This document shows positions 960 through 45,168 of a DNA stretch of 46,051 nt, in pieces. A program made the position numbers and the translations under genes. The first letter of the stretch is position 1. Each line of letters begins with the position of its first letter. The stretch is from the NCBI GenBank assembly GCA_018061755.1, contig JAGOTP010000009.1, forward strand, positions 1 through 46,051, read 5' to 3'. This DNA comes from Patescibacteria group bacterium. Lineage in GTDB: Bacteria; Patescibacteriota; Patescibacteriia; 2-12-FULL-60-25. The notes beneath the pieces are model-generated. The model saw only the letters and a list, made by a program, of their open reading frames with translations, made no database searches and was not told the origin of the DNA.

Positions 960-1211
960 AACACCGATTCTCGCGCATGGGATCTGAAGCCAGATCCCCA
1001 TCCGCTTCGCTCGAGTCTCGAAAGAGGCAGATCGAAGCGGGTGCAGGGCTCAACCCTCAACCCGGCCTGTCACCTTTCATCCATACGCGTGGTTCATAAA
1101 GGTCGATCTCTGACGTCCGTCAGAGGCTCCACGCCCCTTACTCAGATATTTCTTTTACCGGTTCTTTCTTTATCCAAAGAAAATCCGGTCTCTCGAAGAC
1201 CTACAGGTCAT
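960..1211 (+). promoter_or_regulatory. hairpin-rich intergenic region / probable structured 5' leader of the S-layer-type gene
   Basis: No convincing gene lies here; a start at 1041 would add 57 residues before a clean signal peptide. Several inverted repeats are visible: an 8-bp perfect stem 979-986/991-998 with loop AAGC; an 8-bp stem 1002-1009/1033-1040; a stem 1038-1042/1060-1064 containing AGGG/CCCT at 1045-1057, which overlaps and so competes with the previous one; an 8-bp near-palindrome 1108-1115/1118-1125; a weaker ACCGG/CCGGT pairing across ~1157-1190; and a GACC/GGTC hairpin at 1198-1209 that covers the only purine-rich stretch before the start codon at 1212. The first hairpin has no T-tract, so it is not a typical intrinsic terminator. 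I found no convincing -35/-10 pair. A structured leader for a highly expressed mRNA is the simplest reading. Confidence 0.45.
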
Positions 1212-4200
1212 ATGAGTCTTGCAAAAAGAATCCTCTCGAGCTTCGTCTCGTTGACGACGGTTCTCTCGACGGTTGGTACTGGTATGCTTGCGTTGCCAAA
1301 CGGCGCGTCTGCTGCCACGCTCGCCTCGGGTGACCTCATCAAAGCATCCGGTCCAACGGTGTATTACTACGCCTCGGATGCACGTCGCTATGTGTTCCCA
1401 AATGAAACCACGTTCTTTTCGTGGTTCCCAGACTTCTCGTCCGTTAAGACCATTACGGATGCAGAATTGGCTGCTATTTCACTCGGTGGAAACCTGACAA
1501 TCCGTCCAGGTACCAAGTTGGTTAAGATCACGACAGACCCTAAGGTCTACGCGGTCGCTCCAGGCGGTTTGCTTCGCTGGGTTGAATCTGAATCAATTGC
1601 TACTTCGCTTTACGGCTCAGCTTGGGCCCGCCGCGTTGTTGACGTTGCAGATTCCTACTTCACGAACTACGCTACTGGTCCTTCTCTCTCCACGGCTGTT
1701 CACCCAGACGGTACGCTCATCTCGTACGCTGGTGACTCAGCTCGTTACGTTGTCATGGGTGGCATGAAGCGCAAGTTCAACCCAGACTCAGCTTTTGCTG
1801 CGAACTGGTACAACGCTGCGAACGTGATCCAAACAACGATCATGTATCCAAACGGCAGTGACGTGACTGGCCGCGAGGCTATGATGGCTGACGCGATTTA
1901 TCGCACCGGCGTCGTAACCCCAGTTGCTGGTAACCTCATGGTTGCTTTGGCTTCTGACACACCAGCTCGTGCCACGTTGCCTCAGGGCAGCTCCGGCAGC
2001 CAGCTCGCGAAGTTCAACTTCACGGCCGGTTCCGCTAACGTTCGCGTCACGGGTCTCCGCGTTCACCGCGTAGGCGTTGGTGCTACGTCTGATTTCTTGA
2101 ACGTCTACTTGTACGACACGAACGGCACGCGTCTCACGACCGGCCGCACGATTAACTCTGTTACCCAGACGGTTGATTTCAACGGTCTTAACTGGACAGT
2201 TCCAGCGGGTCAGACTTGGTCGCTCGTCGTTGTTGGTGACGTCAAGGGTTCCATCACTTCTGGTGGTGAACACACCTTCGAACTTATGGACGCCGCTTCC
2301 GTCATTGTCGCCGCCTCTACGACGGCTACGATCGGTGGCTCGTTCCCAGTTCGTGGAAACTCCTTTGTGATCGGTACCACGAGCGCTGCTCGCTTGGACG
2401 TTCAGAAGGGTACTCAGCCATCCAACCCAAACGTTGGTGCGCTCCAGGCCGAAATTTCCAACTTCAAGCTCACGGCTAACACGAACGATGTCCGCATCCG
2501 CCGTGTAACCTTGTACCAAGGTGGAAACACGCCAAATACGGATCTCCGCAACTTCAAGTTGTACCAAGGCTCGACGCTTGTCGCCGAAGCCGCTGGTGTG
2601 AGCTCCAACAACCAAATTGTTCTTAACTTCACGGGTGAAGGCTACGACATTCCAAACGGAGTGACGCGCGTTTTCTCCTTGAAGGCTGATGTTAGCGGAC
2701 GTTCCACTAACACGATCAAGACCTACCTCGAATACTCATCAGACATCATGGCCATCGACCGTGTCTACGGATCCGGTGTGCTCGTCTGTAACGGTACTTC
2801 GACGAGTGGTTGTACCTCAAGCAATGGTTCATTCGACGGATCCGGTTCCAACCACATCACGCTTACCACCCAAGGTGGTCAGTTGACGGTTGCCTACAAC
2901 GGTCCTGGTACATCGAACGTTGCCAAGGGTCAGAACAACGTTGTGTTCATGCGCTTCGCTTTGAGCTCCCAGAGCTCGAACCTCGAAGTTCGTAACCTTC
3001 GTTTGGCTGTTGGTTCGACGAACGGTGGTCTCGTAGCTACGGGTACGTCCAGCTACACGGATTACATCCGCAACGTCCGCGTGCGTGACATGTCGAACGG
3101 TCAGGTTCTCCAGGGCCCAACGTCCGCCTCCGGTGGTACATTGGATCAGGCGAGCTCCCCAACGACGTCCACGTTCCTCTTCAACAACTCCATCTACTTG
3201 AACGCTGGTCAGACGCGTAACTTCGAAGTTCTTGTTGACTTGTACAACACGGACAACACCGATTTCATCGGTAAGAAGTACCGCGCTAGTTTGAACGCGT
3301 TCCAGTCAGGTGACGTTCGCGTCATTGACACGAACGAACAGGTTGCTTTGACGGACATCGTGCCAAACGCAGTCATTCCAGGTAATGAAATGACGGTGCA
3401 GGCCGGAAGTCTCACGGTTGCTCTCTCGGGTAGCCCAGCTTCCAGCAGCGTTGTGAAGCGCCAGGCAGATATCCCATCTCTTGGTGTGAACTTCACAGCT
3501 GGTGGTCAGAGTGACGCCTTGGTTACTGCTCTTACCTTGCTTGGTACGGGTGATATCTCAGGCACGTGGGGCGTGACGAACTTCGTCAACGTTATCTCGG
3601 CTTGTTCGCTCTACAACGGTACGACCCAACTTGGTCAGTCCCGTGTTCCAGATTCGAACGGTGTCATGAGCTTCACCAACCTTAACTGGACGGTTGCTCG
3701 TGGTACGACAGGTATGCTCTCGGTTAAGTGTACGGCTGACTCAGTCATTACGGATAGCAGCGACCGCTTCGCGGTTGGTATTTCTTCCGTGTCGGCTCAA
3801 GATCAGGACTCCAACACGGTTACCGTGACGGCTACTCCTGCTAGCAACAACGTAAGCGGTTCCAACACGCCTTCCACTGTCATCATGACGGTTCAGAGTG
3901 CTGGTACGGTTTCGTTGAACGCTGACAACATGCCACAGTCGACCATCTTGGTCGCTGGTAAGGCTGGTATCCCTAACGATACCTGGCATCGTCTCGCTCA
4001 GTACCGTGTTACGGCGCAGTACGAAGACATGTCGATCGACCGCGTGATGGCAACATCCTCTGGTCTTGGTCTCATGTATCGCGAAGTCGGTGTGGCGGTG
4101 AACGGTGCGGTGCGTGGAACGGCAAGCTTCTCGGGCGGCGCAAGCACGTCCAAGGATATCTTCCTGACCAGCCCAATCGTTGTGCCTAAGGATGGTAGCG

Positions 4201-5129
4201 TTGTTATCCAACTCATGGCGAAGTTGAACCCAATTGTGGCCAGCTCCTCCGTGTTGACGGGTGCAAATGCTGCTCGTTCCGGTCAGATCGTTCGTCTCGG
4301 TATCGCTTCGAACAACGTCACTGATCTAGAGTATGACTCCAGCTACGCAACGAAATTCAACGTTCGCGTAACGGGTCAGGCTTCTGGTGAACGTGTCTAC
4401 ATCGCGACCACGACGGCTACGATCTTGAACCAGGGTCTCTTCGGAAACTCCTTCGTTGTTCGTGCCACCAAGCCAACGGTTAGCCGTGTGGCCTTGACCT
4501 CGACCAACTTGGTTCCAGGTAGCTCCGCTGAGTTGTATCGCTTCAATGTACAGGCTGATTCCATGGGTCCTGTGGCTGTGAAGAAAGTGACGTTCCGCGT
4601 CGCTGCCAACACTTCCACGAGCCAGGTCAGCACGTTCTCTCTCACGAACTTCAAGGTTTTGAAGGGAACGCTCCAGATGAATACGAACGACTACAACGTC
4701 GTGAACGCATACACTGGTGTCTCGTTGAAGAATGCAACATTGCAGGCTCCTACGACGACTTACGTTGTGGTCTCCTTCACGGATCCACAGGTAATCGACG
4801 CTAACACGAGCCAGCAGTTCGCTTTGAAGGCTGACGTGAACAACTCGGTGTCTGGTGACATCGTGAGCACGGCCTTCGCTACTCAATCCGACAGCGCGGT
4901 CTACACGGGCTACCTCACGGTTGCCACGACCACGTTGGCTGGTACGGGTGTCAACCTCACGGGTCCAAACTTGGCCGAGAGTGTTGATGGCACTGGTATT
5001 GCTGCTGGTACCTTCGTCTGGTCGGATGTTTCCGACTCAGCTGGTGGTACGGCTACTTCCGGTGACTGGACGGACGACTTGTTCTTGCAGGACCTCACCG
5101 ACTCTCAGTCAGTGAGCCGCAACAGCTAG
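1212..5129 (+). CDS. putative S-layer / major secreted cell-surface protein
   Basis: A secreted protein of 1305 residues. The ATG at 1212 is preferred because it begins a textbook signal peptide: Lys5-Arg6, a hydrophobic core, and an ASA cleavage site after about residue 34. The mature N-terminus has a tyrosine-rich unit (VYYYASDARRYVFPN, then TFFSWF, residues ~48-72) with a shorter echo later (SARYVVMGG), a combination I recall from CPR S-layer-type proteins. The middle ~1000 residues are Ser/Thr/Gly/Asn/Val-rich beta-type sequence with few cysteines, suggesting tandem Ig-like domains. Near residue 1267 comes FVWSDVSDSA and then TSGDWT, a C-terminal signature I associate with the same group. 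Codon choice is strongly biased (Asn mostly AAC, Phe mostly TTC, Gly mostly GGT), unlike the flanking genes, which fits very high expression. A strong terminator follows. It is monocistronic and sits directly before the glycan locus, so it is a natural acceptor for glycosylation. S-layer identity is inferred. Confidence 0.75.
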   Translation: MSLAKRILSSFVSLTTVLSTVGTGMLALPNGASAATLASGDLIKASGPTVYYYASDARRYVFPNETTFFSWFPDFSSVKTITDAELAAISLGGNLTIRPGTKLVKITTDPKVYAVAPGGLLRWVESESIATSLYGSAWARRVVDVADSYFTNYATGPSLSTAVHPDGTLISYAGDSARYVVMGGMKRKFNPDSAFAANWYNAANVIQTTIMYPNGSDVTGREAMMADAIYRTGVVTPVAGNLMVALASDTPARATLPQGSSGSQLAKFNFTAGSANVRVTGLRVHRVGVGATSDFLNVYLYDTNGTRLTTGRTINSVTQTVDFNGLNWTVPAGQTWSLVVVGDVKGSITSGGEHTFELMDAASVIVAASTTATIGGSFPVRGNSFVIGTTSAARLDVQKGTQPSNPNVGALQAEISNFKLTANTNDVRIRRVTLYQGGNTPNTDLRNFKLYQGSTLVAEAAGVSSNNQIVLNFTGEGYDIPNGVTRVFSLKADVSGRSTNTIKTYLEYSSDIMAIDRVYGSGVLVCNGTSTSGCTSSNGSFDGSGSNHITLTTQGGQLTVAYNGPGTSNVAKGQNNVVFMRFALSSQSSNLEVRNLRLAVGSTNGGLVATGTSSYTDYIRNVRVRDMSNGQVLQGPTSASGGTLDQASSPTTSTFLFNNSIYLNAGQTRNFEVLVDLYNTDNTDFIGKKYRASLNAFQSGDVRVIDTNEQVALTDIVPNAVIPGNEMTVQAGSLTVALSGSPASSSVVKRQADIPSLGVNFTAGGQSDALVTALTLLGTGDISGTWGVTNFVNVISACSLYNGTTQLGQSRVPDSNGVMSFTNLNWTVARGTTGMLSVKCTADSVITDSSDRFAVGISSVSAQDQDSNTVTVTATPASNNVSGSNTPSTVIMTVQSAGTVSLNADNMPQSTILVAGKAGIPNDTWHRLAQYRVTAQYEDMSIDRVMATSSGLGLMYREVGVAVNGAVRGTASFSGGASTSKDIFLTSPIVVPKDGSVVIQLMAKLNPIVASSSVLTGANAARSGQIVRLGIASNNVTDLEYDSSYATKFNVRVTGQASGERVYIATTTATILNQGLFGNSFVVRATKPTVSRVALTSTNLVPGSSAELYRFNVQADSMGPVAVKKVTFRVAANTSTSQVSTFSLTNFKVLKGTLQMNTNDYNVVNAYTGVSLKNATLQAPTTTYVVVSFTDPQVIDANTSQQFALKADVNNSVSGDIVSTAFATQSDSAVYTGYLTVATTTLAGTGVNLTGPNLAESVDGTGIAAGTFVWSDVSDSAGGTATSGDWTDDLFLQDLTDSQSVSRNS

Positions 5130-5148
5130 TTCGTCTCTTTCCGCAAGG

Positions 5149-5185
5149 AAAACACAAACTCCCCTTCGGGGGAGTTTGTGTTTTT
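5149..5185 (+). terminator. strong Rho-independent terminator of the S-layer-type gene
   Basis: A 16-bp perfect stem (5149-5164 with 5169-5184) closed by a TTCG tetraloop, with CCCC/GGGG at the tip and the T-run TTTTT forming the 3' side of the base. It begins 19 nt after the stop codon, which makes assignment to the upstream gene secure. The complementary A-run means it could also act on the minus strand. Confidence 0.95.
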
Positions 5186-32099: not shown

Positions 32100-32155
32100 C
32101 CATGAGCCTGACTCGCTCATCCACATTCTTAGGCGTTTCTTGTCTCGGATGAACC

Positions 32156-32164
32156 TGCTATACT
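32156..32164 (+). promoter_or_regulatory. extended -10 promoter of the DxDxDG protein and giant-protein genes
   Basis: TGCTATACT is a consensus extended -10 (TG at 32156-32157, TATACT at 32159-32164), 20 nt before ATG 32185. A weak -35 (TTTCTT) lies 17 nt upstream. It is probably the promoter for both downstream genes, which are 6 nt apart. Confidence 0.55.
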
Positions 32165-32184
32165 ACTTGCGACCTTGTCTTGCT

Positions 32185-32949
32185 ATGGCGAACCTTTTGC
32201 GTGACCGTTGGAATCAATTAAAAAAGGAGCAGAAGATTGCGATTGTTTCACTCAGTGTATGCTGTGTCTTTTTGTTATTCGGTGGAATCTCGCAACTGAG
32301 TTCGTACGTGCATCGTCCGTTTCTGGTTTCGCGTCAGAATTTAGCGCGTTCCATTCAAATTCGTACACAAACCTTTCAAGATGAAACAAAAGCCATGCAG
32401 GAGCTGAAGCTTAAGGATACCGATCGTGATGGGATCTCTGATTATGATGAGCAATACGTCTATCGCACATCGGCTTATCTAGGTGACAGTGATTCAGACG
32501 GATTGTCTGATGCAGAAGAGGTGGCAAAAGGTGAGGATCCAAATTGTCCACAAGGCAAGAACTGTCTTGATGTTCAGACGTCTATTCCACGAGCGAATAC
32601 CTCGACTCTGGCGGTCGAAGGTGTGACGCGCATCCCAACCGAACGACCGGTAGCCCAAGCTCCACAAAGCGGAGTCGATGATTTTTTGGCTAACCCACCC
32701 AAGCCTGAAAGTATGAATGCGGCTGAAACACGCGCCTATCTCCGTTCGCATCGGATGGTATCTGAAGAGGAGATCGCGACTTTACCGGATGCGTCTGTAC
32801 TTCAGGCTTACCAGCTATCGTATCAGGAGGCTTTGCGTATTCAGGCGGCTCGTGCCGCTGTGGCTGGTAGTTCGCCGCCCGCCACGTCTTCTGCTTCGAC
32901 GCTAACGGCTCCTTCTTCTCCCGCTCCCTCTCCTCAACCAACCCCCTAG
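32185..32949 (+). CDS. membrane-anchored protein with DxDxDG calcium-binding-type repeats
   Basis: A 254-residue protein. ATG 32185 is chosen because it gives a short basic cytoplasmic end followed by one membrane segment (IAIVSLSVCCVFLLFGGI, ~18-35); the longer frame from 31981 overlaps the Hsp20 gene. Outside the membrane are two thrombospondin-type-3-like loops, DTDRDGISDYDE (~78) and DSDSDGLSDAEE (~103), then GEDPNCPQGKNC with a likely disulfide. The last ~30 residues are Ser/Pro/Thr-rich. Such repeats bind calcium and stiffen surface proteins; S-layer assembly is often calcium-dependent, so a link with the S-layer-type protein or with the giant protein 6 nt downstream is plausible. The function is not known. 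Confidence 0.8.
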   Translation: MANLLRDRWNQLKKEQKIAIVSLSVCCVFLLFGGISQLSSYVHRPFLVSRQNLARSIQIRTQTFQDETKAMQELKLKDTDRDGISDYDEQYVYRTSAYLGDSDSDGLSDAEEVAKGEDPNCPQGKNCLDVQTSIPRANTSTLAVEGVTRIPTERPVAQAPQSGVDDFLANPPKPESMNAAETRAYLRSHRMVSEEEIATLPDASVLQAYQLSYQEALRIQAARAAVAGSSPPATSSASTLTAPSSPAPSPQPTP

Positions 32950-32955
32950 CGCTCT

Positions 32956-35900
32956 ATGGACTCTACGCGTTCTTTCCGTCGCATCGCCTTTATCCTCGTC
33001 ACTGCTGTGACGGGGTTAGCGCTTTGTTTGGGGCCGATTGAGCCAGCTCTGGCTCAGGCAACGAAGGAAATGCCAATTCCTTTCAATGTGCCATCGCCCA
33101 TGGCGGTTACCATTTCGGCCAACTTGCCAGAGGCAGCTAATCAAACCTACAAAAACATCTATACAGAATTGACACGCGCGGGTGTGATCGCCCTCACAAA
33201 TGCCACACAGCTGTTTTTGGGACAGATGGCCTACGATGCGGCAGAATATATTGCGACGGGTGGCAAAGGACAGGGCAAGCTCTTTTTTGATGGCAAGTTC
33301 GGGGAATATCTGACGAACGTGGGAAGTGACGCAGCGGGAGAATTCATGGCAAGTTTGAGTGATTCAAGCTTCTTCCGTGGCGTTGGGTTCAATCTGTGTC
33401 AGCCTAGAGATCCAGCCACTCTCTTGCGTTTGCAGGTGTCTTTGGGTGATTTGGGGAGTCAGCTCTTTCCTTCTTCATCTGATCTAAACTTGCCGAGCGC
33501 GGGTGGCTTGGCTTCGAGTTTGGGCTTCACACCGAATCAATACAATCGTCCACGACCACGTTGTGAATTCCAATCGGTTTTGGATAACTACGACACCTTG
33601 TTCCGTACCATGAGCGATGGGGACGTGATTCGTAACTTGGAACGGAGCTTTGATCCAGCGCTCAGTCAATTAGGAACGATTACGAGCGTATATAACCGCT
33701 TTCTGACGGATGTTCAGCGTCAGGTGAACGACGCTGCTTCTCAGCGTGAGGAGGGGAATGGTTTCCGCCCAGTTGAAGGATTGATCTCGGGCAACATCCG
33801 TACACCAGCTTCTGTTGTTGCAGAAGCTACAAACGAACAGATCGTCCGCAAGCCAGGAGCGGATCAGACGGCCATCGTTTCAAGCATGTTATCGAATGCT
33901 TGGGAGGCGGGTCCCATTCAGCTCGCAATTTATACCGGTTCGATTTTCGTGAATACGTTGGCCTCGAAGTTCATGCAGCGTATTTTTGAGAAGGGTTTAG
34001 GTGGTTCGTTTACACCTTCGCTTTCACTCGACTTGTCTGGCCCAGATTCGGTGGCTGTCTATGGAAAAACCGATGCGCGCAATGCCAATATCGATTTGAA
34101 AAATCCACCACCACAACAAGTAGCAGACTACGATGTTGTGTCTCAGATGCAGACTTGTTTGCCAGCTCAGCGTGGAACCTGGAATTGTGTCATGGATCAA
34201 TCGTTGGTTCAGGCGGTTCGTTCGAAGACACAAGAGGGGGGCGTTACGGTGCGTGAAGCCTTGGAACGCAACATGTTGCATGGCGATTGGCGTTTGATTC
34301 CAACCGTCCGCACACGGGAAAACCAAGACGACCAGTGTTATACCTACGCTTACTGTGCGGGCAACCTGCAAAAGATGCGTCTCATGCGTATCTTGCCGGT
34401 TGGTTTTGAACTGGCTGCGAATAGTGTAAATAACGTTCGACGTTGTGATACGCCAGAAGGTTGTGTGACGCTGTCGGAAGTAGTGAAAAATTTTGCTGCT
34501 TGTAATGACAATGGACAGCTCGATGACGCCCACCCTTGGTGTCACTTGATTGATCCGAACTGGGTTGTCACCTCTTTCCCTCAGCAATGTAGTTTGACGG
34601 GCTTCAGCGATACGTTGGTCTCGAGCAAGCTGCCGATTCGCAAAGAGGAATGTCAGGATGTGAAGACTTGTTTATCTCGCAACGATCGTGGCGAGTGTGT
34701 CGGAGGCTATGGTTATTGTATGGCGGAGCGTTCAGTCTACCGCTTCTCGGCCGATGTCTGTCCGGCCTACGCAGCCAGTTGTCGTATCTATACGAATAGC
34801 GCCGGAACGAAAGTTGGCTACTTGCGCAATACGATTGATCGCGCGGCTTGTGATGCCTCAAACGCAGGTTGTCTTTGGTACTCTACGCGTCGTGCCACAA
34901 GCACGTCTGAAACAGATGATTGGACGGCGAGCACTTCGACGGGTGAGCGCATGTACTTCAAGGCTGCGACGGCGGGTCAAGGGGTGGCCACCAAAGGTCT
35001 TGAGACCTGTCCAGCTTCTGAGGAGGGTTGTACGCGTTTGTATAATTTCACGCCGGGTAAAGCGGCTTTGAACTTGATGATCAACGGTTCATTTGAATCG
35101 GAAGATACAACGACTTCGACGGATGCGTTAGCCTGGCGCACGCCGGGTCTTGCGGCCCTGTCCGCGCCTTATTTTGAGGAGATGCGTAATGCTCGTTTGA
35201 CGGATTGGACGTCTGAAACGGCTTTCGTTGGTGGAAAATCAATTAAGTTACAGGGAACGGCAGGAATCGTGCCGCAGTCTGTCTGGCAGTCGGTTGAGAT
35301 CGTACCGGGACGTGTCTATAGCTTCTCGACGTACGCTCGTTCGATGGCTGGATCTGCTTCATTGAACGTAGGTGTTATCCCTTATCGTAATTCAGATGGT
35401 TCTGGGTCTGAGACGGAAATCGAGTTGCGTACGCGTTATCATTCCTCGCTTGAGTTGTCGACCTATAATATGGCCGACCGTACGTATAATGCTTATAACA
35501 AAGCCTATACGTCTGAGCTTACGACCGATTGGGCACGTCATGAATTCTCGTTTGTGGCTCCAACTTCGTCTCGCTATGCCTATATCACCTTAGGTGGCGT
35601 CAACGTCTTAGTTGATGGCATTCAACTAGAGGAAGGGGAGTACGCCACGCCGTTCGTTGAGACCTTTAGCTCTGGTTTGCCGACAGTCTTTATGAAGGTC
35701 GCACCGGATGAATTGCAGTGTTCACGTCCGGTGACCGACAGAAGTCGTTCTGCTTTGTGTGGGAACTTTGCTCAGACATGTAGTCAATTGGAGGCGGGTT
35801 GTCAGGGCTACCAGGATCAAGAAGGTGGTCAGCAGATCCCAGCTATTCTGTCTGAAAATGACCTGTGTCCAGCCATGTGTGTTGGATACGCTGAATATCG

Positions 35901-38900
35901 TAAAGCGCCGTCTTCGTTCGACTTGGTCAAGGATATTGATCCACGCTTCAGCGATCCAGAGGAGGCAACTTCCACCTATTTCATCCCTGGGACGGCTGGT
36001 CAGTGTACACAGCAAGATGTTGGTTGTGAGGAATTCACCTTGTTGGATGATAACGGTGCGTCTGATGGCGCCACGGCGGCCTACAGCTATTTGCGTGCCT
36101 GTGAAAAACCAGGAACTGACTCCGAAACCTACTTTACGTGGGAAGGGGCGGATACGGTTGGTTATCAGCTGCGAACCTGGAGCTTGAAGCGTGATACCGG
36201 TCCTTTCGACCTCGGTCCACGTATTTTGACGAAGATTCAAGCGGATCAAATCAGCTTCAAGGAACCAGATACCTGTAACGAAGGCAGTTGGAGAACGGCA
36301 GCTGATCCGGATTGTCGTCAATTCTACGATGCTCGTGGCCGTATCTTCTATCGCTATTTCTCACAGACGATTCTTTCAGCGAATGAATGTACGAATGTCC
36401 GTTTGACGCGCAGCAGTCGCAATGATTGTGAACGTACCGGTGGTCGTTACAATGAACGTGGTGAATGTACCTACGGTGCTTATCTGCCAGAAAGTCGCTC
36501 GTGTAACGCGAGAGCCACCAGCTGTCGTATGTATATGGGAGCGAGTGCTGGAAACACGCAAGCCACCTTCCGTCAGTCGTTCCGTGAAGACTTTGCTCCG
36601 TTCGGTCGTCGTGGTTTGACCACTTCGACGGAAGCGCTGTTGGTGGGCGATGTGTCTGTCAAAGTGGGAGATCCGGGTGTGTCTGGTGAGCCAGAACGAC
36701 CTCTGGGTTATGCGCAAACACGTGCTCTCTTCGATTCGAGTGAAACGGCTCTATATCGCGCGACATTCTGGGCTAAAGCGCCAGCTACAAGTACGAGCAT
36801 CACAGTTCGCACCACGCGTGAAGATGGAGGCGGCGAAGCCGTGATCGGTACGGTCCGTCTTACTCCAGAGTGGCAGCGTTATACAGTCGGTCTGTTCGAA
36901 GGCGCTCCAAACGCTTCTAGTACCTATATTGTCTTTACCGCTCCGCTCTTGCGCAGCGCTGGCTTCGGCTTCTACTTTGACGAAGTGTCTGTGACTCGTG
37001 TGCAGGATGTGGTCTATGTTCGAAACAATACGTGGACGACCCCAGCTCAGTGTGATCAGGGATTAGATGGAGCGGATGAACCACAAGCCATGTTAAACTG
37101 TAAGGCTTACACCAATCGTGTCGGTCAGACGGTTAACGCGCGTCGCTTCACTCGTTTGTGTCGTGAGACGGCTATTGGTTGTAGTGCCTTCGTGGATACA
37201 CGCAACACGGATGAAACGTATGCTCGTCGCTTTGTTCAGCGGAACCCGATCGACCCAACTCGTCATGTACCATCGGTCGTAGTTCGTCCAGCTGATCGCT
37301 ACATCTACTTGATTGATGATCCAGCTAAGCGTTGCAACAGTCAGAACATGAGCTGTCGCGCCTTTGGAAAACCGAAATTGGCCCCAGACCGTCAGCGTTT
37401 GGATGTCGAACGTCCGTATGAAACGGTTTACTACAAAGATGATATTACGCGTTACGACAGCGCTTTGTGTAAGCCATCGGAAGCCTTCTGTGCGGAATTC
37501 AAGTTCGGGACGGTCAAGGAATATTTCCGCGATCCAGCCACCAGCGTTTGTGAATATCGTCAACCAGTTACAACAGAAGCTTCAGCTGGAGTACCGAGTG
37601 AGACCTTGCTAGGAGGTTGGTACGTAAAGGGTTCAGACGCGACACCTTGTTATCCAAGTATTTTGGAAAACGGTCGTACCTATGGTATCGCTCGTTCTGG
37701 TGATCAGACCTATAAGGGGTACGTCGGTGCCTGTGAAGAAGCGGCGGGTGAATGTATCGAGCTGCGTGATATCAACGACACGAGTGATCCAGCTCAACGC
37801 GCAGGCAAGTCCTATTTCTACATTAAGAATGACCGTCTGGATGTCTCGACCTGTAATGGTCAGGTAGACCTTGGTCGTGGTTGTGTACTCTTCCGCGACA
37901 TGAGTAGTGGTGCGCTAACCTACAACGCTCGTGCCAGTTATGAGCAGTACAAGACACAGGGCTACAAACCGGTCACACCAGTCGATTGTCGAAATAATCC
38001 GGAAAATCCGGCCTGTGTTCAAGGTGGGCGTTGTCGTGGGACGCGTGCAACGGTGACACGTCGTATCAGCGGTGATCCAGGCACGGCCTATAACAATGAT
38101 CAAGACGCTATTCTTCAAGTTCGTGGTACAGCAGTACCTTGGACAGGGGATGGAATCTGTCGCACGGATGACGACTGTCGTGTGGTGCCGAACGTCACGA
38201 ACCCTACGGTAATTACCTACAACGTAAACAATGGTGGTGCCTTGGAGCGTCGTACGACTTCTACTGCAGTTGTAGTCACGGAAGCTAACTGTCAGGCTCC
38301 GCCACCAGATCAAGCCAACGATGCCAACCTTTTGTTGAAGGTTTCGGTTGATCGTGAATGTTCGCAGTGGTTAGGTTGTCGCAGTTCTGAAACGGTGCTC
38401 GATCCTTCGACGAACAAGTACAAGGAAATTTGTAGTGTGCCAGCTCTGTGTGACAAGGGATCAGGTGTTGCGAACGATCAATTCTGTGCCAGTTATGTTG
38501 ATCGTCGTTCGACTTCGACAGAGCCTATTCTGGCTCAGGGCCAGGTGCTGACTGCTTCCTTGTATGCCGGTCGTGGTCTGGGATTAGGCCAGCGTGATTA
38601 CTCTGGTTACGCTATTCCGGACTCGTTCCAAGTCATGGACTTACAGAACGTGCGGGTGGCAGTCGAGGGTGCTAAGAATATTCCAGATGCTGCCTTCCGT
38701 TTGTCGCAGGAATATCGTTTGACGGCGGCGATTCCGATGCCTCCATTGCGTCGTATCACGGTCGGCGGAGTCACTCGTTATCAGCACACGCTTCGTCCAG
38801 GGCTGAATCAGGCCAAGATTTTGAACGAATACCAATGGTCGGATGCCTCTTCTGATGGTTTGGCTATCTCGAATCCAACGCTTGCCTTGTGTAAGCATGT

Positions 38901-41900
38901 TTCCTCTGGTCGTATCGGTTACTATATTCCGAGTCAGGCGGCTGATGACCGTCGATCGGCAAATTGTTATTTACCGGTCAACACGTCTTCTGAGTTGTTC
39001 AACTTCGATAAAGTTTCTCAGACATTCTCAGCGAGTGTCGATGCGGCTAACGCAGCCTTATTGACACGTGCTTATCCTCCCGCTGAATGTCGCGCTCAAC
39101 CAGAACAGGATGCTCCATATCCAGCTTCCTTCACAACGGATTGGGACATGACGAAGAATCCACCAAAACCATTGCGCCGCTTGGCTGGCTTCGCATCCGC
39201 CAACACCTGTGAATTTGGCGAAGACTGCAGCTGTACCTATAAGCGTGTCGAATACGAAAGTTCGCCAGCGGTGAAGTTCTACAATCAATACTCACAATCC
39301 AGTCCGCCTGGTGTGTGTGTTGGTGGTCCTCGCGATGGTCAGTCGTGTGTGCCGAGTAAGATCTTCAATGCAGGAACGAATGTTACAACGGCTCCAGCGG
39401 ATCCAGATGGTGGACAGACGGATGAGGCGACCAGTAATTCTGGTGCTCGTGCCAACGCGGTGAATGATGCTAGTTCCGAGCAGTTGTGTGGTCCGCCGGA
39501 GCTTGGTGGGCGCTGTATGCCGTTCAAGGCCGTCACTATCATTCGTGGGACGTTCGGCAGCTGTTTGGAGCGTGACTTGAGTCGTACGATCGGCCAAAAT
39601 AAAGATCTGACACCTTGTCTGACCTGGAATCCGACCCTGCTTCTAAACGGCGACAAAGATCCATATCACTACGAGCAATCGGCTGGCTACATGCCTCCAC
39701 AAAACTCCGGTCAGTACTACTGTCTCTCCAATGCTCGTAAACCAAAAACTGTTCCTTTGAACTCCAATTTCTTCTTCAAGACCCCGGGCGAAGGCGGGAC
39801 ATACTCTGGCAGAATCACCAAGCTGGGTTACTTTGATGGCCTCACGTCCGATGGAGATCTGGCGGAAGGGAATGATCTTGGTGCCCGTATCGATGGCGGC
39901 GAACCGGCTGGCTCAAATGTGTCATATGAATGTGAGCTGACGGATGATGACCAGGACGTGGGAGGATTCTCTGCTGATTTTTCGGCCTTACGTTTGATCA
40001 ATACTGGCCGAGGAGCTCGTCAGTACTGGGAAACATTCTTCCGTATTAGTCCGGCTGCCTTTGCTAAGGCATACCATGGCCGTGACGCAACGACGGAAAA
40101 TGACATCATGCTTTCCATTTCGGATCGAAGTATTGGATATATTGGTCTAAGTCCCATTAGCTCGCCGAACTCAACGGCTCGTTTGGCCTGTGCTTATAAC
40201 CAAGATTGGGTAGACGGTATCAGTACGCCTGATTATACGGACATCAATGCAGTTCATGGTCAGGACTCGCAATGGCAGCAAAAGTTCAATGCGGATTTCA
40301 AGGGCGTCTTAACCCGCTCGTCTGAAGATCTCATTATCGATCCGGCCTCAGCGTCTGGTGCTTCAAACGTCTTGCGTGATCCTTGTATTGAGACGACCGC
40401 CGCCTACCGTGGTCAGACTTGCTACTTCAAGACCTGGGAAACCGGCTACCGCACGGTGGAAGGGGATGATAAGACGAAATTCGTTGGCTTGTCGGCTGGG
40501 AATCGGGAAGATGGCTCGATTAGTCTGACGGGCTCACGCCGAACTTTCGAAACACTTCGTATTTCTACCTACAACGCCAAATGTGACCAGACAAAGCCGT
40601 ACTTCTCAGTGCGTGCCGTGTTCCAGTCGAAGATAAATACGGGTGATCGCGCTCCATTACCACGCAGTGAATTCGGGACGATTGCTACTCAGTGGACCAT
40701 GGCTGGTTTCTGGGTCACGGCCTGCGGCGGAGCTTCTACGGACGAGCATTACATCTACATGCGGCCTCGCGTAGAATACAGCGATGTCTGTCGTGAATTG
40801 GCGGAAGTTGTGAGCCGTGACTCGAAGCAAGATGCTGCCTTTACGGATCGAGTCTGGAAAGATGGAAACTTCACAATTCCAGTCTTGGGTATCAGCTACA
40901 ATGCTCGTTACTCGCCGTTCTCGAGCGCCTTGAATACGCGTAATCCTGGCGTTGATCCGCTCTTCCAGACGGGTCAGGAAGTAGTCGGCTACTCTCGCTT
41001 GAATCCTCCAACGTTCCTTGCAAGCGGCTACCGCACCTACTACTCCAACGACCCTGCGCCAAAGGATAAGTGGGCTCATCTCACGAACATCTTCGCGCGT
41101 GTTTATAACATCTATAAATACCACGAATCACAGGTAGCAAACGGTCAAACAGCTTGTCTTGCGGGTCCAAACAAGGGGCAGAAGTGTACACCATCGGGTG
41201 ATGGTACATCTCCCGACTGTAGTTCTAATGGTCGTTGTGATGCTAGTCGTCTGGCCGCTTCTGGTGTGACTGAATTTACGGCTGAACGTTGTAATGCCTT
41301 ATCTGGTATCAATGCTGGTCTCACCTGTTTGCCGGGTGAGCGGCGCGAAGATTGTCATATCGCCCCGATGCAGCTCACTGGAAGCGGTGTAGATTTGCGT
41401 ACTCTTCCTTGTCTAACGCAGCCAGGCTGGAGAAGAGAAGGTGATCTTTGGATCAATGGAAGTGCGCCGGGGGTTGCCCAATCGGCAGCTGCTACAGCGG
41501 GAGCCTTCCGCTGTCCAAACACTCCTGCCTCCCTACGTCGAGATGTTATAGGAAACGCCTGGGGTGGCCTCGCTTGGACGGCTGGTGTTCGTGGTCATCT
41601 GTGCAGTGCTCCAACGGATCAGGGAGAAATCGTAGAAGGCAGTGAGGAATGCCCAGAGCGTATTGTGAATGGATTAGAAATTGCGCCAGCTTCCGGTGCC
41701 CCTATCACAGCTCAGGGTGATCGAAGAATGCAAGTTCAATGTGTGCCTAGAACGGCAGGAGTCGCCATTACGCGAACGGCGCCTGGTCGTTGTCGTGTCG
41801 TGGTTCCACCTTATAGTATCAACGTCCCTGGTAAGCCTGCCTTTGAGATGGCTGGTTTCTCAACCAACCCAGATTCTGAAGGGTATGCCTACGGTGAATG

Positions 41901-44118
41901 TACGACGACTGAAGATTGCTCTTTCACGATGGATAACTACTATTTGTCGAATGCGCCAACCATGTTCGACACTCGTATGTTTGCCAGTAGTCGCTCGCTG
42001 CAGATGTCTTCTACAGCAGATACGCGACGTGGGAGCTTCACGGCGGGGGGCTGTGGTACTTGGCCTCAGAGCATCTGTCGTGGACTCGCTTCGGGTGGAA
42101 TGTGGATTGTGAATACGGGAAACCCTCGTTTGGAGAACGCGAGTGCGGTTTACGAAGCGCCATCCTATACAACGGCAGGACGTGGCGTAAACCTTGGGAG
42201 AGATTTCCGTCAGATTGAATATACGTTCCGTTATCCGGGAGCTGTTCAGGCGACGGGTTATCAGGGAATGATCCTAGTCGGTGCGTGTATCCAAGCGGAT
42301 AATCCTCGCAGCGGTGCCAGTACGTCTCGTGGTCTGTGTACGGGTGGTACGCGTGACGGCCGCGTCTGTGGAACTGATTCCGACTGTGTAGCGGTTGATT
42401 CGGTAGCCGATCGACCATTGAGTCGCTGTGGTCCGGTGTCTACTCGTGCCAGTGATAACGCTCCTTGGGAGCCGGTTTCTGAATGTAGAATAAATGACAC
42501 AAGTTTGCAGCCCGCTGGTTCGCCAGGTGTGAACTTGAACAATGACAACAACATCTGTACGCATGAACAGGGGTATGTGCCGCGTATCGATCTTTGTCCA
42601 AATCCGAATGATCAATACTGTGGCTTGATCGCTTACAACGTCCGTCGTCCGCTTGATTCAGTTGCTACAGCGGCTCCAGCCCGCTTGCCGACGGATGTGA
42701 CACTGGGTCTTCATAAGCTGCCCTACTTGCTCGGTGAAGGCGACGTGGATGCACCAGATACCTATAGCGCTACCTACCTCCCACGTCCTCCGATGGTCGC
42801 CGCTCCAGACATTCGAAACTGTCCTTCTCCTGGTAAGTGTCAGGTTCAGGGTCTGAATAAGATGTCGCTTGACGGTTCGTCTGAGGGAATCGTGAGTGTT
42901 CCAAGTAGCCAAGCTAAGAGCGTCCTGCGTTTCTACGCCTGGGCCGCTCACAACCAGATGCCGCTTCGTTCGATCAATCTTGATTGGGGTGATGGACAAG
43001 TACAGGCCATCAACGACGGAAAACTCAAGAACCACAAACCTTACTGTGCGGTTCGCAAAGAGTGTGTGACGATCAGTCGTAGCGCTGGTGTATCTCGTGA
43101 CAAGGTCGATTCAAATGGGCTGACTTGTAACACAGACAACGACTGTCCGACGGGTGGTGGTAGCTGTCAGGCGATCGGTACCTGCCGAGACAATACGGGC
43201 ATTCTGTGTACGAACGATTCACAGTGTCGCAGTTCATCTTCCAGTAAAGACGTCTGTCAGATCCGTAATTTCTTCGGAAATAGTGCAGAAGCCTGTGAAG
43301 AAAACTACTTCGAGTTTACTCACCTCTATACCTGTAACGGTCCGGGTAGCTTGCCACTCTGTCGTCGTCCAGCGTTGACGGGTCGCACGACTGGTGGTCA
43401 AGAAGTGGTTCCAGCCAGTGTCGAATTGACTGGTGGTTGTCACTACGGTCGCTACGAAGCCGACATGATGAACGGTCGACAAACGACGGATCGTGCCACC
43501 TGCGATGCCTCGGCTGGTGTCAGTCCGCTGGTCGCCTGTATCCGCTCAGTCAACCAGCGTCTCGGTTTGACCGGCACGGCTGCTCTGGCTGAAACGACGG
43601 AGGCTGCCACTGCCAATGGAATCTCATGTGTGACACGTATTCCTGAGACTGGAACGAACGCCAACCACTGTGAACGCGATCCAAACCGCATCTGTAACCT
43701 CGCTGATGTAAACAGCTGTGCTCCAGGCGATCGCTGTCTGCCAAACTTGGCTCCAACCGGTGGTTGCTGGGATGATCAAGTCCAAGTCTGTCGCTTCACT
43801 CCTCGTGTCATGGTCCAAGACAACTGGGGTTGGTGTACGGGAGAATGTCGAACGACGAGAGACAGTGGGGGAGCGGCAGCTGATGATCGTAACCCTTCCG
43901 CTGGAGGACCGATTGCGCTGCATCCGTACGGTGGGTGTTATGCCGCGACGCCGGTGGGTGCTGAGAAGACGATCATTGATAACGCTGCAAACTTCAATGA
44001 TAGAGTTCCTTTCCGAAATGAGTGCAGAACAAGTCTTCCAACATCGGGCGCTGGTAATCAGGAGCTAAGACCTTGGATTGTTTATCCGGGCAGCATCAAT
44101 CTTCGAAGTAGTCGCTAA
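32956..44118 (+). CDS. giant secreted cysteine-rich protein (3720 residues)
   Basis: The largest gene here, about 24% of the window and roughly 400 kDa. A signal peptide (RIAFILVTAVTGLALCLG, cleavage near ALA at ~33) precedes a helical N-terminal region (~35-340) with a LFLGQMAYDAAEYIATGGKG segment and a Cys pair, a type I recall from other CPR giant proteins. I count roughly 137 cysteines, mostly TGT codons. From ~480 to ~1600 a C-x5-GC-like motif recurs (near 684, 941, 1017, 1402). Two jelly-roll segments resembling CBM4_9 modules lie at ~705-885 and ~1208-1340. The C-terminal half has a CxGGxxxGxxC motif (near 2121, 2734, 3127) and many CxxDxDC knots. A PKD-like NLDWGDG at ~3342 and its FTHLY end at ~3454 are separated by a Cys-rich insertion. 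No C-terminal membrane anchor is visible. Adhesion to a host or matrix is inferred only. Confidence 0.85.
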   Translation: MDSTRSFRRIAFILVTAVTGLALCLGPIEPALAQATKEMPIPFNVPSPMAVTISANLPEAANQTYKNIYTELTRAGVIALTNATQLFLGQMAYDAAEYIATGGKGQGKLFFDGKFGEYLTNVGSDAAGEFMASLSDSSFFRGVGFNLCQPRDPATLLRLQVSLGDLGSQLFPSSSDLNLPSAGGLASSLGFTPNQYNRPRPRCEFQSVLDNYDTLFRTMSDGDVIRNLERSFDPALSQLGTITSVYNRFLTDVQRQVNDAASQREEGNGFRPVEGLISGNIRTPASVVAEATNEQIVRKPGADQTAIVSSMLSNAWEAGPIQLAIYTGSIFVNTLASKFMQRIFEKGLGGSFTPSLSLDLSGPDSVAVYGKTDARNANIDLKNPPPQQVADYDVVSQMQTCLPAQRGTWNCVMDQSLVQAVRSKTQEGGVTVREALERNMLHGDWRLIPTVRTRENQDDQCYTYAYCAGNLQKMRLMRILPVGFELAANSVNNVRRCDTPEGCVTLSEVVKNFAACNDNGQLDDAHPWCHLIDPNWVVTSFPQQCSLTGFSDTLVSSKLPIRKEECQDVKTCLSRNDRGECVGGYGYCMAERSVYRFSADVCPAYAASCRIYTNSAGTKVGYLRNTIDRAACDASNAGCLWYSTRRATSTSETDDWTASTSTGERMYFKAATAGQGVATKGLETCPASEEGCTRLYNFTPGKAALNLMINGSFESEDTTTSTDALAWRTPGLAALSAPYFEEMRNARLTDWTSETAFVGGKSIKLQGTAGIVPQSVWQSVEIVPGRVYSFSTYARSMAGSASLNVGVIPYRNSDGSGSETEIELRTRYHSSLELSTYNMADRTYNAYNKAYTSELTTDWARHEFSFVAPTSSRYAYITLGGVNVLVDGIQLEEGEYATPFVETFSSGLPTVFMKVAPDELQCSRPVTDRSRSALCGNFAQTCSQLEAGCQGYQDQEGGQQIPAILSENDLCPAMCVGYAEYRKAPSSFDLVKDIDPRFSDPEEATSTYFIPGTAGQCTQQDVGCEEFTLLDDNGASDGATAAYSYLRACEKPGTDSETYFTWEGADTVGYQLRTWSLKRDTGPFDLGPRILTKIQADQISFKEPDTCNEGSWRTAADPDCRQFYDARGRIFYRYFSQTILSANECTNVRLTRSSRNDCERTGGRYNERGECTYGAYLPESRSCNARATSCRMYMGASAGNTQATFRQSFREDFAPFGRRGLTTSTEALLVGDVSVKVGDPGVSGEPERPLGYAQTRALFDSSETALYRATFWAKAPATSTSITVRTTREDGGGEAVIGTVRLTPEWQRYTVGLFEGAPNASSTYIVFTAPLLRSAGFGFYFDEVSVTRVQDVVYVRNNTWTTPAQCDQGLDGADEPQAMLNCKAYTNRVGQTVNARRFTRLCRETAIGCSAFVDTRNTDETYARRFVQRNPIDPTRHVPSVVVRPADRYIYLIDDPAKRCNSQNMSCRAFGKPKLAPDRQRLDVERPYETVYYKDDITRYDSALCKPSEAFCAEFKFGTVKEYFRDPATSVCEYRQPVTTEASAGVPSETLLGGWYVKGSDATPCYPSILENGRTYGIARSGDQTYKGYVGACEEAAGECIELRDINDTSDPAQRAGKSYFYIKNDRLDVSTCNGQVDLGRGCVLFRDMSSGALTYNARASYEQYKTQGYKPVTPVDCRNNPENPACVQGGRCRGTRATVTRRISGDPGTAYNNDQDAILQVRGTAVPWTGDGICRTDDDCRVVPNVTNPTVITYNVNNGGALERRTTSTAVVVTEANCQAPPPDQANDANLLLKVSVDRECSQWLGCRSSETVLDPSTNKYKEICSVPALCDKGSGVANDQFCASYVDRRSTSTEPILAQGQVLTASLYAGRGLGLGQRDYSGYAIPDSFQVMDLQNVRVAVEGAKNIPDAAFRLSQEYRLTAAIPMPPLRRITVGGVTRYQHTLRPGLNQAKILNEYQWSDASSDGLAISNPTLALCKHVSSGRIGYYIPSQAADDRRSANCYLPVNTSSELFNFDKVSQTFSASVDAANAALLTRAYPPAECRAQPEQDAPYPASFTTDWDMTKNPPKPLRRLAGFASANTCEFGEDCSCTYKRVEYESSPAVKFYNQYSQSSPPGVCVGGPRDGQSCVPSKIFNAGTNVTTAPADPDGGQTDEATSNSGARANAVNDASSEQLCGPPELGGRCMPFKAVTIIRGTFGSCLERDLSRTIGQNKDLTPCLTWNPTLLLNGDKDPYHYEQSAGYMPPQNSGQYYCLSNARKPKTVPLNSNFFFKTPGEGGTYSGRITKLGYFDGLTSDGDLAEGNDLGARIDGGEPAGSNVSYECELTDDDQDVGGFSADFSALRLINTGRGARQYWETFFRISPAAFAKAYHGRDATTENDIMLSISDRSIGYIGLSPISSPNSTARLACAYNQDWVDGISTPDYTDINAVHGQDSQWQQKFNADFKGVLTRSSEDLIIDPASASGASNVLRDPCIETTAAYRGQTCYFKTWETGYRTVEGDDKTKFVGLSAGNREDGSISLTGSRRTFETLRISTYNAKCDQTKPYFSVRAVFQSKINTGDRAPLPRSEFGTIATQWTMAGFWVTACGGASTDEHYIYMRPRVEYSDVCRELAEVVSRDSKQDAAFTDRVWKDGNFTIPVLGISYNARYSPFSSALNTRNPGVDPLFQTGQEVVGYSRLNPPTFLASGYRTYYSNDPAPKDKWAHLTNIFARVYNIYKYHESQVANGQTACLAGPNKGQKCTPSGDGTSPDCSSNGRCDASRLAASGVTEFTAERCNALSGINAGLTCLPGERREDCHIAPMQLTGSGVDLRTLPCLTQPGWRREGDLWINGSAPGVAQSAAATAGAFRCPNTPASLRRDVIGNAWGGLAWTAGVRGHLCSAPTDQGEIVEGSEECPERIVNGLEIAPASGAPITAQGDRRMQVQCVPRTAGVAITRTAPGRCRVVVPPYSINVPGKPAFEMAGFSTNPDSEGYAYGECTTTEDCSFTMDNYYLSNAPTMFDTRMFASSRSLQMSSTADTRRGSFTAGGCGTWPQSICRGLASGGMWIVNTGNPRLENASAVYEAPSYTTAGRGVNLGRDFRQIEYTFRYPGAVQATGYQGMILVGACIQADNPRSGASTSRGLCTGGTRDGRVCGTDSDCVAVDSVADRPLSRCGPVSTRASDNAPWEPVSECRINDTSLQPAGSPGVNLNNDNNICTHEQGYVPRIDLCPNPNDQYCGLIAYNVRRPLDSVATAAPARLPTDVTLGLHKLPYLLGEGDVDAPDTYSATYLPRPPMVAAPDIRNCPSPGKCQVQGLNKMSLDGSSEGIVSVPSSQAKSVLRFYAWAAHNQMPLRSINLDWGDGQVQAINDGKLKNHKPYCAVRKECVTISRSAGVSRDKVDSNGLTCNTDNDCPTGGGSCQAIGTCRDNTGILCTNDSQCRSSSSSKDVCQIRNFFGNSAEACEENYFEFTHLYTCNGPGSLPLCRRPALTGRTTGGQEVVPASVELTGGCHYGRYEADMMNGRQTTDRATCDASAGVSPLVACIRSVNQRLGLTGTAALAETTEAATANGISCVTRIPETGTNANHCERDPNRICNLADVNSCAPGDRCLPNLAPTGGCWDDQVQVCRFTPRVMVQDNWGWCTGECRTTRDSGGAAADDRNPSAGGPIALHPYGGCYAATPVGAEKTIIDNAANFNDRVPFRNECRTSLPTSGAGNQELRPWIVYPGSINLRSSR

Positions 44119-44125
44119 TTCAAAT

Positions 44126-44167
44126 AATCAAAAAGTGAGCCATTATACGGTGGCTCACTTTTTGATT
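44126..44167. terminator. strong bidirectional terminator after the giant gene
   Basis: A perfect 17-bp stem (44126-44142 with 44151-44167) and an 8-nt loop, with AAAAA and TTTTT inside the base on either side. It begins 8 nt after the giant gene's stop codon. It may also limit readthrough from the lipoprotein gene. Confidence 0.93.
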
Positions 44168-44246: not shown

Positions 44247-44876
44247 TCACCGCGTGCAGATGCGGAGGACGCCGGTCGTCCTGTTCATGGGCATACCACC
44301 CTGCATTTGCAGCATGTCGGCGCACGAGCTGCACGTGCTGCCGGTCATGGTGTAGCGGAGGATCATCCTCGACCCGTCGCTCATAGGCTGCGACGCACAC
44401 TCGTTGCTGTGGCACTCGGTCCACACTCCCGGAAAGCCGAGCTCGGTGAGCGTGGCGCGTGTGCCGCGCTCACCGCAGATCGGCCTGACCGTGAAGGTCA
44501 TGAGCTGCTGCTCCGTGTTCTCGATGAACGTGACCGTCTGCGCCTGAGCCAGCATCGCCTGGCACATGAAGGCCGGGTCCGGGTTGCAGATGGACGCATC
44601 GTCAGCCACGCTCGCGTCCTCCGCCGCGTCCGTCCCCGCGTCGATCACGACGGGGTTGTCGGTCGGGGTGTCGGTGCTGGGGGGCACGTCCTTCGCGATG
44701 GCCGCGTCGGGCGTGGGGGTCGAGTCGGGCTGGGAGCCGTCCGCGGGGTCGCGGCGGTCGTCCGTCACCGACGTGCTGGAGTCTTCTCGAGGGCCAACTA
44801 CGTTGGAGCCCTCGATCCCGCACGCGGCCATGAGGGCCACGGCGAGGGCGATCAGAATCATTCGCAGCAGCTGCAT
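44247..44876 (-). CDS. putative lipoprotein in a GC-rich, foreign-looking island
   Basis: A 209-residue exported protein. The start at ATG 44876 is fixed by a full AGGAGG Shine-Dalgarno site 7 nt upstream, the best in the window. The signal peptide MQLLRMILIALAVALMAAC ends in a lipobox-like LMAAC, so Cys19 would be lipid-modified. Residues ~35-100 are an Asp/Pro/Ala/Thr-rich linker (for example PTPDAAIAKDVPPSTD, then DAGTDAAEDASVADDAS), a style typical of Myxococcota and related Deltaproteobacteria. The C-terminal ~105 residues hold eight cysteines, including CSSCADML. GC content is clearly higher than the rest of the window, with G/C-ending codons, whereas neighbouring genes use many A/T-ending codons. 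Overlapping plus-strand frames are by-products of the high GC. Recent transfer, or an assembly join, are the two explanations. Confidence 0.75.
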   Translation of the reverse strand: MQLLRMILIALAVALMAACGIEGSNVVGPREDSSTSVTDDRRDPADGSQPDSTPTPDAAIAKDVPPSTDTPTDNPVVIDAGTDAAEDASVADDASICNPDPAFMCQAMLAQAQTVTFIENTEQQLMTFTVRPICGERGTRATLTELGFPGVWTECHSNECASQPMSDGSRMILRYTMTGSTCSSCADMLQMQGGMPMNRTTGVLRICTR

Positions 44877-45168
44877 GTTGCAGCCTCCTCTTGGTGTGGC
44901 GCCCTTGGGGCGCACGGGTTGGAGACGAGCACGACGGTTGGCGGAATGCCTTGGTCGTACGAGAGATCTGAGCTGGGTTAAGCGGTTAAAGGCTTACCAG
45001 TTTAGACAAGAAAGGCGTTATAGTAGAGTCGAATTGTCCTTAAAGGTGCATACGAGGGCGCTGAGAAGCACTCCGTCGTCATGCTGAAAGGTACCATGGG
45101 ACCGATTATCTAAGCAAATAGGGGCGTTTTTGTCAAAAATCTAGAGCCTGAACCCAAGTAGAACTGCT
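44877..45168. other. intergenic region upstream of the lipoprotein gene and of nusA
   Basis: The first ~100 bases remain GC-rich and contain the Shine-Dalgarno site of the lipoprotein gene plus GGGCGCC-type inverted repeats. From about 44980 the composition returns to that of the host. On the minus strand a perfect TTGACA (45136-45131) is followed by GATAAT at a 20-nt spacing, a possible but poorly spaced promoter for the lipoprotein gene. A 31-codon frame on the minus strand (45097-45002) has no ribosome-binding site and no recognisable features. I see no RNA gene here. Confidence 0.5.

Follow-up and report, generated by a model that had tools for sequence, protein, structure and literature searches.

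Introduction

Type IV secretion systems (T4SSs) of Patescibacteria derive from the MPF-FATA type, with comF near the T4SS genes in ABY1 (PMC12102498), and the T4SS is essential for the epibiotic growth of Saccharibacteria (PMC12102498; PMC12857230). The means by which Patescibacteria recognise their hosts and keep hold of them are largely an open question. PrgB and other cell-wall adhesins are encoded with MPF-FATA type T4SSs, and Gram-positive conjugation uses surface adhesins, not pili (PMC12857230); the available portion of the Patescibacteria T4SS survey records no PrgB-like adhesin in its dataset (PMC12102498). TraN of F-type plasmids is an exported protein with a disulfide-rich conserved core (22 cysteines) and a variable tip that sets recipient specificity; it stabilises mating pairs and belongs to the T4SS gene set (PMC9246713). 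Large exported cysteine-rich proteins with a proposed role in attachment have been described from Peribacteria, together with strain variation in large proteins; they number about twenty, contain 7.2% cysteine, and include a 14-gene cluster (PMC4736985). Here we describe a 46,051-nt stretch of Patescibacteria DNA (contig JAGOTP010000009.1, assembly GCA_018061755.1; hereafter the window) that encodes a 3720-residue cysteine-rich protein, the giant, together with a small partner gene, c0, and we compare this pair with the genes of the T4SS.

Results

The giant and its conservation

The main elements of the giant are as follows.

32956..44118, + strand: giant secreted cysteine-rich protein, 3720 amino acids (aa), 137 Cys (open reading frame (ORF) and alignment of relatives)
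32956..33057, + strand: probable export signal, residues 1-34 (lone hydrophobic segment by hydropathy, in aligned giants retaining the N-terminus)
34696..37755, + strand: C-x6-C module region, residues 581-1600 (12 of 13 C-x6-C motifs)

The giant is a single uninterrupted frame with exactly 137 cysteines (3.7%) that covers 24% of the window in a genome of 1.15 Mb, as the initial annotation had described it (an exported protein with about 137 cysteines filling a quarter of the window). Export and membrane calls were made by hydropathy in place of a dedicated signal-peptide predictor; one N-terminal hydrophobic segment was found from residue 10 and none further, and the giant is probably exported. 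Mean cysteine content was 0.9% for ORFs of at least 200 aa in five family loci, about a quarter of that of the giant. The recurrent cysteine motif that had been noticed earlier was confirmed for C-x6-C, which occurred 13 times against 4.1 expected under random cysteine placement (maximum 11 in 2000 trials).

Of 44 loci fetched, 41 giants were aligned, omitting the short or cut giants of L064, L066, and L074; they ranged from 2530 to 4620 aa. Cysteine was the most conserved residue (mean 0.79), followed by tryptophan (0.54), and 117 of the 137 window cysteines were kept in at least 60% of the aligned rows, 52 of them in at least 90%. Because the open frames of the relatives are similar in size and cysteine is their most conserved residue, the giant is neither a chance frame nor a frameshifted product, an outcome that the initial annotation had named as grounds for abandoning its claim.

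The relatives belong to the class of Uhrbacteria and Komeilibacteria, for which ABY1 is our own label, and their genomes are based on metagenome assembly. The first 998 residues of the giant matched 53 of 57 relatives, and a profile of residues 390-1200 (A3) matched 106 of the 115 class genomes whose completeness was 90% or more, mostly with one strong match per genome. In a phylum sample of 285 genomes, A3 matched strongly in 24 genomes of the same class and weakly in 13 of the 261 others, mostly over the lectin-like stretch; none of the unmatched genomes that were listed was of the same class (228 unmatched genomes lay outside that list). By these matches, the giant is part of the class core gene set. 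No relative was found on viral contigs, and no description of the giant was found in the open-access papers searched (subscription papers and preprints lay outside the search).

Six large ORFs with weak out-of-class matches (L104-L109) were considered as orthologues and excluded from the count, since they contain 7-20 cysteines and their match is confined to the lectin-like stretch. As an observation in its own right, these Patescibacteria outside the class carry ORFs of about 2,800-3,500 aa with lectin-like stretches and few cysteines, several of them lacking an N-terminal export signal. A 26,141-aa frame in G382 (G382:C8) was rejected as artefactual because it runs over 72 kb of N, a caution for tables of frame length. 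On G341:C2 (645679+ and 692873-), the giant, c0, and the VirB6-like gene were each matched twice with identical score and length, in inverted orientation about 45 kb apart, which is either a duplication or an assembly artefact.

The partner gene c0

32149..32949, + strand: c0 partner protein, one N-terminal membrane segment, TSP3-type DxDxDG calcium-loop pair, DPNCPxGxxC (Pfam TSP3_bac, alignment A2)

The c0 protein has about 250 residues; its start is inferred, the ORF opening at 31981. It matched Pfam TSP3_bac (1e-05; 25.7 bits, over the cut-off of 25), two designed proteins in the PDB, and, far short of the 800-bit cut-off, a portion of the Myxococcus cohesion protein MtsD (1.2e-05). The gene was the immediate upstream neighbour of the giant in 41 of 44 loci, separated from it by a median of 6 nt (the window has the end of c0 at 32949 and the start of the giant at 32956). 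Among the 98 class genomes for which both positions were listed, 90 had c0 on the strand of the giant match and no more than 5 kb upstream of it; two of the 106 genomes were omitted from this count because the listing lacked the position of their giant. From this arrangement, c0 and the giant are a two-gene unit, predicted to form one operon.

Linkage to type IV secretion genes

In 58 class genomes, a VirB6-like gene followed downstream of the giant on the same strand at a distance of no more than 20 kb; by-eye pairing on one contig covered 59 genomes in all, with a secondary match taken for G338, G403, G417, and G364. Outside the window's family, the polytopic VirB6-like protein is encoded by the next gene after the giant or a few genes on (A1). 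This protein family was assigned by topology and gene order, its TrbL/VirB6 match (0.0064) being below cut-off and its profile having no match in a sequence search of the PDB; it was found phylum-wide in 156 of 192 genomes. In L098, the VirB6-like gene was followed by PrgI (7.2e-07, over cut-off), a TrsD-like gene, and VirB4 (1e-108, over cut-off). PrgI was over cut-off in the window's own genome as well (L092). VirB4 (NF045971) was present in 56 of 57 relatives, 45 of them over cut-off, and the own-genome copy, at a contig end, scored 2.1e-94, below cut-off. ComF-like proteins, named by sequence reading, follow VirB4 in L093 and L098. The giant and the VirB6-like gene were absent together in 4 of 115 genomes against 0.8 expected (p 0.003), a weak test because linked genes vanish together in incomplete genomes.

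Within the family of the window, the pair of c0 and giant (G000:C5) has, by gene order, moved away from the T4SS cluster (G000:C9). The pair now stands between VanW/Hsp20 genes and nusA, while VirB6, PrgI, the TrsD-like gene, and VirB4 remain together elsewhere; nusA and other gene names given here with no family match are sequence readings. The TrsD-like gene and VirB4 of this cluster are separated by an island (L130:2800-8560; about 5.7 kb) that contains secreted-looking ORFs and is rich in guanine and cytosine (mostly 61-77%, with two 500-base stretches at 51 and 57%, against 46-55% in the window); it is either a foreign insert or an assembly chimera.

An N-terminal domain shared with the slot before VirB6

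33061..34125, + strand: T4SS-locus core domain, residues 36-390, near-invariant Cys 148 and 203 (homologous to the secreted protein that precedes VirB6 in out-of-class loci)

A recurrent gene order was seen in 12 VirB6 loci from outside the class: an rsmA-like gene, a c0-like gene, a signal-bearing secreted protein (280 to about 1100 aa), and VirB6. The c0 profile matched in 8 of these 12 loci. Of their 181 ORFs, a profile of giant residues 36-400 (A9) selected exactly five (4.9e-10 to 8.7e-06), and all five were the signal-bearing protein (280-540 aa) in the slot before VirB6; they scored 18.5-32.5 bits, whereas the best of 663 shuffled or reversed controls reached 6.3 bits. The reverse profile selected 7 of 449 in-class ORFs, all of them giants (8.6e-12 to 8e-04). 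A joint profile (A11) also matched six out-of-class genomes that had no part in building it (G122, G134, G173, G202, G230, and G254), and in each of them the match lay upstream of VirB6, on the same strand and within 6.5 kb.

The N-terminal domain therefore very probably belongs to the T4SS locus, judged by this homology, and we propose that the secreted slot before VirB6 represents a phylum-level family. The A3 region (residues 390-1200) had no match in the short out-of-class slot proteins, so the arm of about 3,300 residues is class-specific, and the giant is best read, from its N-terminal homology to the slot protein, as the secreted protein of the T4SS locus with a class-specific extension. 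In one out-of-class locus (L142; G095:C7), the protein encoded in the slot before VirB6 is truncated by the contig end yet reaches at least 1121 aa, with 19 cysteines and two C-terminal membrane segments; by its sequence, this is an independent enlargement of the slot.

Modules of the arm

35068..35670, + strand: CBM4/9-like module 1, residues 705-905, faster evolving (profile match and pairwise identity)
36565..37005, + strand: CBM4/9-like module 2, residues 1204-1350 (Pfam and PDB profile matches)
41356..42555, + strand: hypervariable segment, residues 2801-3200 (identity 0.37-0.58 of the protein mean in nine related pairs)
42676..43155, + strand: conserved C-terminal block, residues 3241-3400, with DWGD at 3343-3346 (alignment and pairwise identity)
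43819..43836, + strand: conserved DxWGxC motif, residues 3622-3627 (alignment)

The initial annotation had named two carbohydrate-binding-like modules and a PKD-like domain, of which the former were recovered. Pfam CBM_4_9 was the only family that the whole giant matched at E up to 1. For module 2 it was matched by 15 of the 25 sequences in alignment A6 (best 1.8e-10), although the window's own copy fell under the Pfam cut-off (16.3 vs 25.9 bits), and the family profile of module 2 matched the PDB entries 4xup (1.3e-9), 1gui (2.1e-8), and 2zey; at the family level, these profile matches identify it as CBM4/9-like. Residues 750-893 in turn matched the module 2 profile (1.2e-4). The PKD-like domain was not confirmed: no PKD match was obtained in 23 members of A7 and no PDB match was found, the conserved D-W-G-D alone being present, and the C-terminal block that contains it had no family match in Pfam or PDB profile searches. 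A PDB sequence search with the whole giant gave no match, and one with the N-terminal domain gave a single weak match (0.14). Alignment A6 drops L070 and L072, A7 drops 4 of 27 members, and others were removed from A8 and A9 for length.

Relative to the protein mean, identity in the nine related giant pairs was 0.73-0.76 for module 1, 0.65 for residues 1701-1800, and 1.38 for residues 3301-3400. Most of the length of the hypervariable segment was absent from L037 and L038. In its sequence make-up, the arm looks like a recognition structure.

Disulfide folding genes

The initial annotation had stated that a dedicated folding system for so many disulfides is not encoded here, which is true of the window; the genome, in contrast, carries both VKOR and DsbA-like proteins, the two kinds of gene that had been suggested for a search. 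The own-genome VKOR (G000:C3:37389-37757) has C..C and CxxC motifs and scored 87 bits (86 in a second scan; cut-off 27.5). The DsbA-like family Thioredoxin_4 gave four matches in G000, two of which are tandem exported CxxC proteins (L131:3539-4306 and 4387-5178), and was present in 57 of 57 relatives.

Neighbouring features

44126..44167, no strand assigned: 17-pair hairpin with T-rich flanks, probable terminator behind the giant (pattern match only)

Directly after the giant and facing it, a lipoprotein-like ORF (44247-44915, - strand) with several cysteines and a D/A/T-rich linker had no family match above cut-off. Comparable short lipoprotein-like ORFs adjoin other giants (L047, L099), and another is found at L131:2932-3414. 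The start of the window encodes a DUF5667 protein (3-959) and a 1362-aa secreted-looking protein with no Pfam match (1041-5129).

Discussion

We favour the explanation, at a probability of roughly 0.6, that a secreted protein of the Patescibacteria T4SS locus takes a class-specific form in the giant, which acts as a host-contact adhesin of the T4SS. The adhesin function, drawn by analogy, is considered probable to the same degree. Conservation, the operon, linkage to T4SS genes in 58 class genomes though not in the window's own family, the shared N-terminal domain, the family-level lectin-like module, and the variable patch are established; the cell location of the giant, its binding, and its contact with the T4SS are predicted from them. 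In the proposed mechanism, c0 and the giant would be made from one operon, the giant would be exported via the Sec route, and its cysteines would be paired by a VKOR/DsbA-type system, for which genes are present. The N-terminal domain of about 360 residues would do the job of the short protein, docking at the VirB6/VirB4 machine, perhaps through c0. The other approximately 3,300 residues would make up an arm stiffened by disulfides, which would grip the host envelope with its sugar-binding-like modules and hypervariable patch, acting like the surface adhesins and TraN-type stabilisers of conjugation. More tentatively, a single polypeptide may be both a component of the secretion machine and the host-recognition tip; the class would then have fused the slot protein to a disulfide-laced arm of 2,000-4,000 residues, host range would reside in the hypervariable patch, and the giant would be the adhesin that the published Patescibacteria T4SS survey did not find.

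The suggestion in the initial annotation that the size and modularity of the protein point to contact with a host cell thus remains the best reading, given the T4SS linkage, the shared N-terminal domain, the CBM4/9-like modules, and the hypervariable segment. The survey of orthologues and neighbours that it had proposed yielded the class-wide distribution of the giant, the c0 partner, the T4SS link, and the N-terminal homology, all absent from that annotation. The structure prediction that it had also proposed gave unusable models, and the family-level CBM4/9 assignment came from sequence profiles instead.

Several observations weigh against this explanation. The N-terminal domain shows only distant homology. 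Of 13 out-of-class slot candidate proteins, 8 were unmatched, which means that the family has either diverged strongly or is less than universal, and the joint profile matched only 11 of 176 out-of-class genomes, five of which had been used in building it. Linkage was not seen in 42 of 100 class genomes with both the giant and the VirB6-like gene, 41 of which had them on separate contigs; in the remaining genome (G359), they lie on one contig, 520 kb apart on opposite strands. The separation of the pair from the T4SS genes in the window's own family belongs here as well, and the shared absence of the giant and the VirB6-like gene possibly stems from missing contigs. Sugar binding by the CBM4/9-like modules is a sequence-based prediction for every copy. 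Structure models of residues 36-1200 and 2540-3720, built from five-row alignments (the window and L001-L004), had mean predicted local distance difference test (pLDDT) values of 33.5 and 30.4, and claims about fold refer to sequence profiles. A VKOR match was obtained for no more than 37 of the 57 relatives, and other oxidants must therefore serve some of them.

The same evidence can be read in other ways. The giant could be a structural element of the T4SS locus and not an adhesin, namely an extracellular sheath or conduit by which the secretion channel is led across the wall and surface layer. One strong match in most genomes, the domain in common with the short protein beside VirB6, and a conserved, rigid disulfide scaffold would suit such a part, but CBM4/9-like modules and a hypervariable segment are more typical of surface recognition, and two relatives do without most of the hypervariable part; we regard the sheath as unlikely. 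Glycoside hydrolases are the usual companions of CBM4/9 modules, a pairing also reflected in the PDB names, and the giant might accordingly be a secreted enzyme that degrades host polymers. Searches of Pfam, NCBIfam, and the PDB with the protein or four regional profiles found no catalytic domain, however, which makes an enzyme highly improbable.

A general surface or matrix protein, serving the cell coat or self-aggregation and merely adjacent to T4SS genes, is slightly less plausible than a sheath. The position of the own-family pair away from the T4SS cluster would fit it, as would the TSP3 repeat and the partial, sub-cut-off MtsD match of c0, and large cysteine-rich exported proteins are reported in the available text on Peribacteria (PMC4736985). 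The out-of-class homology of the N-terminal domain to the protein of the same slot and the linkage in 58 genomes are, however, hard to square with mere neighbourhood. If the host-contact adhesin explanation is true, the giant would be a concrete class-wide candidate for host recognition and holding, with residues 2801-3200 as the candidate address of host specificity. It would also account for the outlay of about 1% of a genome of roughly 1 Mb on a single gene.

Comparison with known systems

Catalytic, PKD, TraN, and PrgB identities for the giant were rejected for want of family support. TraN resembles the giant in combining a conserved disulfide core with a variable part and in belonging to the T4SS gene set, but it sits in the outer membrane of diderms and is several times shorter than the giant, and neither the giant nor 27 members of A3 gave a TraN-family match in searches up to E = 1. 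The LPxTG anchor and the polymer adhesin domain of PrgB are both missing from the giant: hydropathy showed no hydrophobic C-terminal segment that could serve as a sorting signal, and Pfam gave no polymer adhesin (GbpC-like) domain at E up to 1. By analogy, the giant most likely works like TraN or the Gram-positive adhesins, while by sequence it is in neither family. It differs from the Peribacteria proteins, compared here by their description in the available text, in being mostly one per genome and tied to T4SS genes, with no strong out-of-class match in the phylum sample.

A further comparison is with the Patescibacteria T4SS itself, whose VirB6-like, PrgI, TrsD-like, and VirB4 genes stand beside the giant in relatives outside the window's family. 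The available part of the survey (PMC12102498) describes no c0 family and no secreted slot before VirB6.
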